From Antedon mediterranea (taxonomy: Eukaryota > Echinodermata > Crinoidea > Comatulida > Antedonidae), in NCBI RefSeq assembly GCF_964355755.1, contig NC_092680.1, positions 2,147,001 through 2,211,000 of the forward strand: a stretch of 64,000 nt of DNA, in the 5' to 3' direction. The notes below the pieces were generated by a model, which saw only the letters and a list, made by a program, of their open reading frames with translations, had not been told where the DNA came from and did not search any database. Both the position numbers and the translations under genes were made by a program. Shown piece after piece: positions 9,519 to 16,005 of the stretch. Within the stretch, counting starts at the first letter, position 1; each line of letters starts with the position of its first letter.

Positions 9519-9630
9519 AAGGTCTGTCTACACTATCAAACTAGTGTGTGATGTGCCCAAATATGGAAGTGATATGACATCATGTCCATACATTTTTTTG
9601 TCGCATAAAGTTTGATAGTGTCGACAGAAC
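9519..9630 (-). mobile_element. Palindromic MITE copy 2
   Basis: Starts TTAAGGTCTGTCTACACTATC and ends AGTTTGATAGTGTCGACAGAA. The core is internally deleted. Confidence 0.85.
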
Positions 9631-9785
9631 TATTAATGATCTGAGAAGAAGTATGAGATTACTATACAGTATTTTGAAATACTACAGAAACTTAATGAAA
9701 TACTTTTATTCATTTTATATATAAAATAAAATGTTTTTTATCTTGTCTAATGCAAATGTTTTTTTACAATTTTTTTTTACATTAT

Positions 9786-10825
9786 TTATGATTCTTTGCT
9801 TCTAAACAATCTCCTTTTTTTGTAATTCTTTGACTTCCTATCTCCTTCACCAAGATATCTAGCAGCAGACTGTCTTTTCCCACTCTCAATCAAATCTTGT
9901 GTTGGCACATTTCTAAATCCTTCAGGTAACGCATTATTTGTCTCCACATAAACTCTCTGCGCATCGCCTAATAAAAGACTACGGTTCTTAAGAGCTATTT
10001 TATCCATCTTTTCCATGTTTCTCTCCTGTGGCACAAACTTGCTGTGGAGGACTTTCCTAATGGCATCTTGAGACACCGTAAAACCATCTGCCAATCTCTT
10101 GATGTTCCATTCTTCTGGATGTTCTTGATAGAGAAAGCGTATTTGTTGAATCATGTTGGTTGTCAATAGTCTTGGTTCCTTAGGCTGTGGGAATTGTCTT
10201 CGTATCCTGTTGTATCTCATTGCCTTTTGTCTTCTATTCTGATCTCTGCACAAAAGACAAGAAACAAAATTAATATTGAAACTATCAAGTTTTCAATTTT
10301 AACTTGGAGGCTTCAAAGAAAATTATTGGGATTTGGGCAACATTCTAACAAAAAAAAAGGAAACAGTGGTAGGTAGGCATACTTTAGAATCTTTTCTAAA
10401 ACTTCCGAATCGTTTTCTTCGTCATAATCTAGAGGTGAAAGTCTTTTGTTTATTTCCGTTTCCATTTTTCCGTCTAATTTAGTGGAATCATATTCACCAC
10501 CTCTTCTTCCCGAACCTCTTTTAGAACAAAGTGTTGGCGATACACGATATCTTCTCAAAAAAATTAATAAATTTGACAATCTGGAATTTTTATTTAAGCA
10601 TTTGCAATTTAACCATGTGCTGCTGTTACACGTTACAGTGCCAATAACTTGTGAATACGGATGACTGCTGACGACAAAAGGTTCGATGTTAGGTCTATAA
10701 TTTGTTAATGTACTAAAGCGGGAAAAATTGATTTTCGCCGCGTGGATTTTGGAAATGGCAGAGTCGGTAGGCCTAAGTTGGACAAAATATACCAAACGAG
10801 ATCGAAGAAGTTTCATTGACAACAT
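9786..10825 (-). CDS. NGRN: Neugrin (NGRN), mitochondrial rRNA-associated protein, 2 exons, 300 aa
   Basis: Exons 10825-10383 and 10245-9786 join in phase 2 (AA|A) to 300 codons plus stop; human neugrin is 291 aa. Exon 1 starts at ATG with an Arg/Leu-rich, acid-poor stretch (MLSMKLLRSRLVYFVQ..) that fits a mitochondrial targeting peptide. The neugrin domain lies in exon 2: QNRRQKAMRYNRIRRQ, then MIQQIRFLYQEHPEEWNIKR, LADGFTVSQDAIRKVLHSKF and VPQERN. It parallels human RQKQAIRFQKIRRQ..AMEQIRYLHEEFPESW..RLAEGF.VS.DVIRRVLKSKF. The family is linked to a module that supports 16S mitochondrial rRNA abundance. The C-terminus is basic (KSKNYKKRRLFRSKES). It is divergent with DCP2, with 442 bp between ATGs. 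Confidence 0.92.
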
Positions 10826-11267: not shown

Positions 11268-14200
11268 ATGGATAATGTACCAGAAATACCAGAAGATATT
11301 CTCATCGACCTAATTTCGTAAGAGAAATAGCATTTTTGGTTCTCTATACCTTCCTTGATGAGGAGAGAGGGAGGTGGAGAGCTGAGGCTAGCTCAGCTTG
11401 TCTTTTTCCTCTCTCGACTTTGGTAGTCTGCAGCCACCAGCGGCCAATATTTCAGAAGAAGAAGGTTTTTATAGAGGCGCTTTTTACACCACCACCGCTA
11501 TTGTAAACATACAGTATTATTTAGATTAATGATAATAATAATCCATGAATTACAAATTACATAAAAATGGTATATCACATAAATAATAAAAAATTAAATT
11601 GAGGTGTTGCTATATGTATGTATGATCAAATTTACGCATGAAATTCATTGTTTGACTGTGTGCCGATAAAAAAACTTGACATTAGACACTCGGTCGGTCA
11701 ACCGTGCTAATTATCGCATTGTATCAAACAAATGTAATTACTAATTATTATTTATATTATGTACTTTAATATATAAATGCAATAATTGTATTATTTTGTC
11801 TTTCAGCCGTTTTCTGTTAAATGTGCCATCTGTAGAACGCAATAATCTGATTCGTGTTTGCTTTCAAGTTGAACTTGCTCATTGGTTTTACCTCGACTTT
11901 TATCGACAAGAACAGCCAAGCCGTCTTCCTGGGTGCAGGATTGTAGATTTTGCCAAAGCAAATATCCTTTACTGGTTTTATTTTACTCTATGAATAAACA
12001 AATCAGTTTACCATGAGTCATGTTTAGCATGTTAAAATTATCGAACCAGTGAAAAATGAGTTTAATACATTGTTTACTGACCGGGTATTTATATTACATT
12101 GCCATGAAAATTATTTCTGCTTGTGTGATTGAATTAAAATTACGTTTCGGTAGCCTACTGTAAAAAATAGGGAGTTTTTGCATCATGAGGATGGTAAACA
12201 AAGGGGACAGTAATTAACATTGTATGCCAAAGAGTTGACACATAACTCACTGTGAAATACAAATTGTTCCATGTTTTAACCTTAACTTTGCACACTTTTC
12301 CAAACCTGTCCATATCTCATAGAACACGCAGAACGAACTGAGGAGATTTTGGCTGATTGGAAACAGTACAAAATGAGTGTGCCTACCTATGGCGCCATCA
12401 TTATGGATAAGGATTTAAAACATGTAATTATTAAATCCATTTATTACAAATTGAAGAAACAAATGTTTATGTTGTCATGTTGTCAGTGGGAAGCCAGTGC
12501 CAATGTACTTAATACATACCATTCAAATAGGCGTGATATAAAGTTCTAGATCAGGCACATGTACATTGTAATGTAATGGGTACATGGCTTTACATCCCAT
12601 CTAAAGGACAAGTGACAAGTTATTGAGTGAGAATCTTGTCTAAAGCTCTGTCTACACTATCAAACTTTATGTGACAAAAAATGTGATGTGCCCACATATG
12701 GACATGATGATGACGATATTTAAGCATATCACTACCATATTTGGGCACATCACACTTTTTTTGTCAAACTAATTTGATAGTGTAGACAGAGCATAAGGAT
12801 ATAGCACATTATCTCCAAATCCCTTACCATTACGCCATATTAATCTCTCAGTACCTATTACATAATATTCATAATTATAATAACTTTTGTTGGTTTCTTT
12901 AGGTTTTATTAGTTCAAGGGTTTTGGTCTAAATCAAGTTGGGGATTTCCCAAGGGCAAGGTGAATGAGGAGGAAGCCCCACATGTGTGTGCAATACGTGA
13001 AGTAAGTAACAATATGTTTCTCACTTCTGATGATGAAATAATTGCGAATGAGAATAATTTGTATAGTAGGTCATGGTGTGAATCTAAACCATAGTTTTTT
13101 AAACAAAAAAAATCTTTTTGATAATTATAATTATAAACAGTTTCAGGAGCGTTAATTGTGAAATAACATGTTTGTTTTGTGAAAATATTGTTTAATTTCA
13201 GTTATTTTAGATGATAATTCTCTAGACTAAGCCTAGCTAGCCCTAGGCCAAAATCATCCAGATTTTCATGGAGAAATAACCAATTTTCTGGTAGGCGGGG
13301 ATATGCATTAAAAATCGGGGAAAATCGGAAAAACCCGCTAATTTCGGGTAACTTGGGACCCCTGAATACAGGACAAATTTAGTATGTAGGATATAGTTGA
13401 ACCCCTATTAAGACGACACTTGCGGGACTGAACTTAAGAGTTGGTCATAGGGGTTAAAACATATTGCCCTTCGTTTCAAGTGTCCTCTGAATAAGAGGTT
13501 CTTCTGTGTGCAGTTTAAAATCCATTAATGTATTATTTTTGTTAGAACTGAGCATTATAGTATCATATATGCTATACTTTATTTACTGTTTTTTGTTCTT
13601 TGCTTGTAGGTAATGGAAGAGACGGGATTTGATATAAATGATTTTATAGATGAAGATCAGTATATACAATTAACTATACATGACCAAGTTGCAAGATTGT
13701 ATATAATAACTGGAGTTCCATATGAAACATCTTTTCAACCAAAAACTAGAGGAGAAATAAAGGTATACAATCTATTTCAAATCTATCACATAGGTGATCC
13801 CCCCCCCCCCCCAAATTTTGACAATTTTAATGCAAAAGATAGGACACTAATATCAGTACGGCACCTACAATTTGCATTTTTAGGCCATGCCCCCTCCCCC
13901 CCCCCCCCCTTATTTCATAATCCTGGATCTGCCACAGATTCATACAGTCATGCCAAAAAAAAATCAATTTCAGGTCCATTAAAGAGAAATTCATTACACA
14001 TTCTTTACTTAATTAACGCCCTTTTCTCGCTAATGAAGTAACATTTTTTTCAGGAAATCAAGTGGTTTAATTTAGATGATTTGCCATCACACAAGAAAGA
14101 CAATGCACCAAGAGTTAACTTAGGCCTGAACCAAAATAATTTCTTTATGGTTATGCCTTTCATAAAGTAAGTTATAATATTTCATTCCATATTTTATTTA

Positions 14201-15279
14201 AACATAACCATGAAATGAGTACTATCAAGTACTGCACAGTTACAAAAACATATCAAAATTAATTATTAAAATATTGGGTTACCATTTTGAGGTCACTGTA
14301 TAATGGTTCAATGTCTTGGTTCCAACCTGTAAAGCTCTGTCTACACTATCAAACTTTATGTGACAAAAAAAAATGTGATGTGCCCATATATGGACATGAT
14401 GATGTCATATCACTACCATATTTGGGTATATCACTATCATACTTTTTTGACAAAATAGTTTGATAGTGTAGACATATATTAAGAGCACATCTGATATGTT
14501 TTCACATAACTTTTTTCAATAGACAATTGAAAAAATATGTAAACAAGAAACGATCACAGACAAAAGCGGCAGAAACACCGCTAGATAGCCTCTTACTAAA
14601 CGCTCAAAGCAAACAACAAGTTCAAAAGGTGGAACAGCAAAATTCCCCCGTAAAACCGTCAAAAAATGGCCCACAAGAGACCAAGCAGCTAACTGATAAA
14701 CAGAGGCAACGCCAACAAAAAGCCTTTGCTCTCAAGAACCAAAGTGAGTTCTCGCAATACCTCAAGTTCCGTGACTCTACTGATGGTAATAGTAATGGAA
14801 CACCTGGCAAGAAGCAGGGAGTTCAGAACCAAAGGGGGTCAAGAGGAAGAGGGGCTCAGCTAAAGCAATATCAGATTCTGGTAAGTGTTAGAGTTTTATT
14901 ATTACAATTACAGATATTATGTTTTTACTTATTTAGTTGTTTTATTGTATTCACACTCCAATCCACACCAATTAACTCATGTTTATATAAAGCTCTGTCT
15001 ACACTAGTTTGACCAAAAAAGTGTGATGTGTCCACATTACATGTTCACCATTAATTTATACACTATTTATTGACTCCATTTCAAAGTTCCAATACCTAAT
15101 TTCAATCAAGAATAAACTTTAATGTTTTTATTTTTTAGACTAGAGATAAAAAATCCAAACAAGATGGAGATAGCACACCTACTAAAGATGTGACACCGAT
15201 CAGGTTTTATGCAAAGGCATTCCTTAACTTTGAGATCAATCGTGAAGAAATTATGGCTGCTTATGATGGGCTGTTATAA
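11268..15279 (+). CDS. DCP2: m7GpppN-mRNA hydrolase DCP2 (decapping enzyme), 8 exons, 398 aa
   Basis: Exons 11268-11317, 11807-11961, 12296-12423, 12903-13001, 13610-13762, 14054-14166, 14523-14880 and 15139-15279 sum to 1197 nt, in phase throughout. DCP2 removes the 5' cap of cytoplasmic mRNA, in P-bodies and with DCP1. The N-terminal regulatory domain reads [37 protein letters not shown] and [20 protein letters not shown]. The Nudix domain opens with [19 protein letters not shown]. The Nudix box is G129-K-V-N-E-E-E135..R143-E-V-M-E147-E148-T-G150-F, with all catalytic acidic residues present. Box B follows ([14 protein letters not shown]) and then KKYVNKKR. The C-terminal tail is disordered and Gln/Lys-rich and ends [19 protein letters not shown]. 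Exon 2 to 3 needs an AT-AC U12 intron. Human DCP2 is 420 aa. Confidence 0.96.
11690..11707 (-). repeat. Isolated copy of the 23-bp minisatellite unit
   Basis: In DCP2 intron 1, TCGGTCGGTCAACCGTGC is the exact reverse complement of 18 bp of the unit repeated at 15799-16005. Confidence 0.8.
11962..12295 (+). other. DCP2: U12-type AT-AC intron of DCP2 (intron 2)
   Basis: The 5' end ATATCCTTT (11962-11970) equals the U12 donor consensus. CCTTAAC (12280-12286) matches the U12 branch-site core about 10 nt before the 3' end. The intron ends ..TTGCACAC (AC at 12294-12295). Joining 11961 to 12296 keeps phase 1 (A|TT, Ile) and gives [17 protein letters not shown], parallel to human FAKAVFSHCPFLL. In-frame stop TAA at 12283 rules out an exon start upstream, and there is no AG between 12258 and 12295. 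Confidence 0.92.
12642..12793 (+). mobile_element. Palindromic MITE copy 3 (near full length)
   Basis: In DCP2 intron 3. It starts AAAGCTCTGTCTACACTATC and ends GATAGTGTAGACAGAGC. It is a good reference copy, about 150 bp. Confidence 0.92.
13380..13515. repeat. Worn DNA-transposon-like fragment
   Basis: In DCP2 intron 4: AACCCCTATTAAGACGACAC..CATAGGGGTT..AGTGTCCTCTGAATAAGAGG. The wording recalls Tigger/pogo-type terminal repeats. Related fragments are at 35385-35525 and 43150-43315. Confidence 0.4.
14331..14480 (+). mobile_element. Palindromic MITE copy 4
   Basis: In DCP2 intron 6, about 40 bp before the exon 7 acceptor. Left end AAAGCTCTGTCTACAC; the right terminus is partly lost (GTGTAGACATATATTAA). 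Confidence 0.9.
14989..15045 (+). mobile_element. Palindromic MITE copy 5 (left-end fragment)
   Basis: In DCP2 intron 7: AAGCTCTGTCTACACTAG, then a collapsed arm with GTGTGATGTGTCCAC. The right half is missing. Confidence 0.75.
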
Positions 15280-15410: not shown

Positions 15411-15798
15411 TTACTATTATTATTATTACTATTACTCCCTCTTCAAGTATATCCCTGCAAAGCTAAAAACACACCGACATCATTTCCGGATTTTTTTATC
15501 CCAGTGTAAAATTAACATTCATGTATTGTTTATAAAATTGTAAATATAATTATTGTACAATCACAAAAAACAAATACATATTTTATACGTAAAAAACACA
15601 AAATAATTCATGTAATATTACTATCCTGCTGCCTCTCATGCTATTTGAGATTTTCAAAGAAATTGTATGTGTATATAAATGCAAAAACATCTTTGAAAAG
15701 TAAGACTTATTTTTGTTTTAAGCACAAACAAATGTATAGTTGTATTTTTATATGTTTGCACTTTTCTTACTAAAGTGTTTATTACAGTTTAAACTAGG

Positions 15799-16005
15799 CA
15801 CGGTTGACCGACCGAAAGTGGCATGGTTGACCGACCGAAAGTGGCATGGTTGACCGACCGAAAGTGGCATGGTTGACCGACCGAAAGTGGCACGGTTGAC
15901 CGACCGAAAGTGGCATGGTTGACCGACCGAAAGTGGCATGGTTGACCGACCGAAAGTGGCACGGTTGACCGACCGAAAGTGGCATGGTTGACCGACCGAA
16001 AGTGG
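15799..16005. repeat. Minisatellite: nine tandem copies of a 23-bp unit
   Basis: The unit is CA(C/T)GGTTGACCGACCGAAAG + TGG. Copies 1, 5 and 8 have CAC; the others have CAT. Apart from that one C/T site the copies look identical. All three minus-strand frames are open because 23 bp is not a multiple of 3; this is repeat, not coding sequence. Confidence 0.97.

Follow-up and report, generated by a model that had tools for sequence, protein, structure and literature searches.

We identified a putative U12-type AT-AC intron in the DCP2 gene of Antedon mediterranea. It would be intron 2 of this single-copy gene, is 334 nt long, lies in phase 1 and occupies positions 11962–12295 on the plus strand of the window, that is, the 64,000-nt stretch of DNA that was analyzed. 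Based on the splice motifs, the gene model, an enumeration of possible joins and the box A scores of the resulting proteins, we assign a probability of about 95% to this reading.

The gene model predicts a complete DCP2 gene of eight exons on the plus strand (11268–15279), encoding a protein of 398 amino acids in an intact frame. Exon 1 (11268–11317) is coding, carries the ATG start and is followed directly by a U2-type GTAAGA donor. Exon 2 (11807–11961), assigned by the gene model and by a genome match to PF05026, encodes box A and ends with FAKA and the first base of an Ile codon. The rest of box A and the beginning of the Nudix domain are encoded by exon 3 (12296–12423), according to the gene model, Pfam and the alignment to solved Dcp2. 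Exons 4 (12903–13001) and 5 (13610–13762) belong to the Nudix domain by gene model and Pfam, while exons 6 (14054–14166), 7 (14523–14880) and 8 (15139–15279, including the stop codon) follow from the gene model. Six introns (1 and 3 to 7) have GT-AG termini; intron 2 is the sole exception.

In a Pfam search, the 398-aa product covers the full profile of DCP2 box A (PF05026) with 103 bits, followed by the Nudix domain (PF00293) with 69 bits. The protein also matches solved S. pombe Dcp2 chains (E ∼3e-62), and its Nudix domain matches a solved DCP2 (NUDT20) chain at 7e-60. The gene model and these homologies support the predicted identity of the gene as DCP2, in agreement with the original prediction. 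The DCP2 gene of the window was the only place found in a search of the genome for the box A family, and no other DCP2 genes were detected in the viral contigs or prokaryote genome contigs searched. The upstream neighbor, arranged head to head with DCP2, is a Neugrin-family gene on the minus strand (9786–10253; PF06413, 72 bits).

Two kinds of repeats were observed around this gene. A short palindromic repeat, AAGCTCTGTCTACACTATCAAA ... TTTGATAGTGTAGACAGAGC, whose ends are reminiscent of a MITE, a type of small non-autonomous DNA transposon, is present at 12643–12797 (DCP2 intron 3), 14332–14480 (intron 6) and 9520–9631, with further copies in the window, across which its end motifs recur widely. 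About 0.5 kb past the DCP2 stop codon, nine 23-bp units of GGCATGGTTGACCGACCGAAAGT are arranged in tandem (15797–16005), and a single inverted partial copy of this unit is found in intron 1 (11690–11712).

Intron 2 starts with ATATCCTTT and finishes with CCTTAACTTTGCACAC. The minor-class consensus comprises the donor ATATCCTT, the branch site TCCTTAAC and a terminal AC (PMC2831892). The predicted 5′ splice site at 11962–11970 is an exact match to this donor, also when it is written as ATATCCTT(T). The branch-site candidate CCTTAAC (12280–12286) lies within ACCTTAAC, which shows one mismatch to the 8-base consensus. Nine nucleotides separate its end from the end of the intron, and the candidate branch A, either 12284 or 12285, is positioned 10–11 nt from the last base (10 nt for 12285). 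The intron terminates with AC at 12294–12295, and both the AT and the AC coincide with the exon boundaries that protein homology demands. The positions, motifs and phase proposed for this intron were correct. Another AC at 12286 would also be in frame, but it lies within the branch site and lowers the box A score by 7 bits; it was rejected as an alternative end. A copy of a repeat was ruled out as the origin of intron 2, since its sole other match in the genome comprises 49 bases at 85% identity.

We estimated how often such a combination arises by chance from simulated sequence, with the donor and the branch site/AC spaced 60–2000 nt apart. By itself, the donor 9-mer has no significance (one found versus 1.5 expected in 64 kb). 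In contrast, simulation predicts 0.02 occurrences per 64-kb strand of the exact donor together with branch site and AC, and one is found, at DCP2 intron 2. Because these motifs also match the exon boundary and the phase expected from protein homology, we consider the contribution of chance negligible. Predicted duplexes of the intron with U11 and U6atac outperform about 97–98% of shuffled sequences. The branch site is A/T-rich, and 1509 of 5000 shuffles pair with U12 equally well, so the U12 duplex adds nothing to the argument.

The removal of intron 2 by ordinary U2-type splicing, with a shortened box A, was weighed by enumerating all GT-AG, GC-AG and AT-AC joins with donors at 11820–12000 and acceptors at 12200–12423. 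Read-through from exon 2 encounters a TGA at 11991–11993, and in the frame of exon 3 a TAA is located upstream at 12283–12285, with no AG separating it from the conserved block; the next AG downstream ends at 12322. Both the in-frame stop and the missing AG had been pointed out before and were found again here. The frame does stay open in 27 GT-AG and 18 GC-AG joins within these ranges, but all of them cost residues of the conserved domain, at least 22 for GT-AG and at least 17 for GC-AG. These losses are those of the least harmful joins: given the stop at 12283–12285 and the absence of an AG until 12322, even the best of them drops 17 residues. Accordingly, box A scores 100 bits with the AT-AC join but drops to 78 bits when the best GC-AG join is used; two of the mildest GT-AG joins reach 69 and 67 bits. 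Within the enumerated range, the conserved block is not preserved by any GT-AG or GC-AG join, and the proposal that no legal GT-AG path exists thus holds, the least damaging one losing 22 residues. One detail has to be modified. The GT at 11975 was described as the only one nearby and as being in the wrong phase; it is indeed in phase 2, and no other GT follows FAKA before the stop at 11991, but a further GT is present at 11943 inside exon 2, where its use as a donor would cost conserved residues. Moreover, exact U12-type motifs are situated at the boundary defined by homology, and no GT-AG or GC-AG join is needed to explain them. We therefore regard ordinary splicing at this position as very improbable.

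Even less credible is a small extra exon hidden within 11962–12295 between two U2-type introns. No feature supporting such an exon was found, and the stretch from the stop at 12283 to the FQTCPYLI block contains no AG acceptor, so that no upstream exon could be joined by a U2-type intron. In addition, the direct AT-AC join already gives a gap-free alignment across the junction to solved fission-yeast Dcp2, and hence no exon is missing. Alternatively, the major spliceosome could excise the intron despite its AT-AC termini. U2-type AT-AC introns do exist, and those of sodium channel genes carry a G at +5 (PMC2831892), but in intron 2 the donor matches the minor class perfectly, with a C at +5, and is accompanied by a CCTTAAC branch site; we would give this possibility hardly any weight. 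A U12-type AT-AC intron thus stays the preferred reading, based on its motifs, the frame argument and homology as well as on the machinery genes and a positive control described below.

Genes for the minor-class snRNAs are present in the same genome, all above the Rfam gathering score: U12 (126 bits), two U11 genes (89 and 83 bits), U6atac (137 bits) and U4atac (98 bits). A weak second match to U6atac (C7:8523554–8523655; 33.7 bits at a gathering score of 33) contains deletions and is probably a pseudogene. CENATAC (CCDC84), on which almost every A-type minor intron depends in human cells (PMC8280824), is represented by five collinear exon matches on contig C8.

PHB2, whose fly and human genes each have a U12-type intron with AT-AC ends (PMC2831892), served as a positive control. 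The query was a human PHB2 sequence, used as a probe only. The corresponding gene harbors an intron (C3:7912030–7914702) with the donor ATATCCTTTC, the branch site CCTTAAC and an AC end; its comparison with the fly and human intron is at the level of gene and intron class. Within this genome, the introns of PHB2 and DCP2 have the ATATCCTTT donor, the CCTTAAC branch site and the AC end in common, whereas they differ in phase and length (phase 0 versus phase 1 and 2673 nt versus 334 nt in PHB2 and DCP2, respectively). Together with the gene model, homology and the machinery genes, this control supports the earlier assignment of the DCP2 intron to the U12-type AT-AC class.

Given the sequence, the reading-frame argument and the genes of the minor-splicing machinery, we infer the following splicing event. 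U11 would bind the donor ATATCCTTT and U12 the branch site CCTTAAC, U6atac would then take the place of U11, and the minor spliceosome would ligate position 11961 to 12296. If intron 2 were retained, the stop codon at 11991–11993 would lead to a 78-residue product without the catalytic Nudix domain, and we would expect the cell to degrade such a transcript. The established minor-splicing pathway accounts completely for intron 2.

AT-AC introns of the minor spliceosome are a rare but well-known class. DCP2 intron 2 is therefore a new example and not a new phenomenon. It resembles U12-type A-type introns in its exact donor, branch site, AC end and phase 1, in being one minor intron among major ones and in the presence of a minor spliceosome in the genome; the sole difference is the host gene, DCP2. 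Vertebrate genomes contain hundreds of minor introns, and about 22% of the 770 human ones are AT-AC (PMC6717393). A search of paper main texts combining DCP2 with minor-intron terms retrieved none that was relevant by title and abstract; the human DCP2 orthologue may already be listed in supplementary gene lists, online catalogues or databases.

In human cells, U6atac can limit genes with minor introns and responds to p38 stress signaling (PMC3728624). Both properties make a limit on decapping capacity through minor splicing, put forward earlier as an inference, a reasonable idea, and decapping might be regulated or limited in this way. We consider it improbable that the A-type intron makes DCP2 output limited by minor-spliceosome activity, with decapping depending on U6atac or CENATAC levels, so that minor splicing and mRNA decay would feed back on each other. 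If this were true, the clearance of unspliced minor-intron transcripts would also depend on the levels of U6atac or CENATAC. With the intron described here, a core enzyme of mRNA decay would join the set of genes dependent on minor splicing, at least in this animal.
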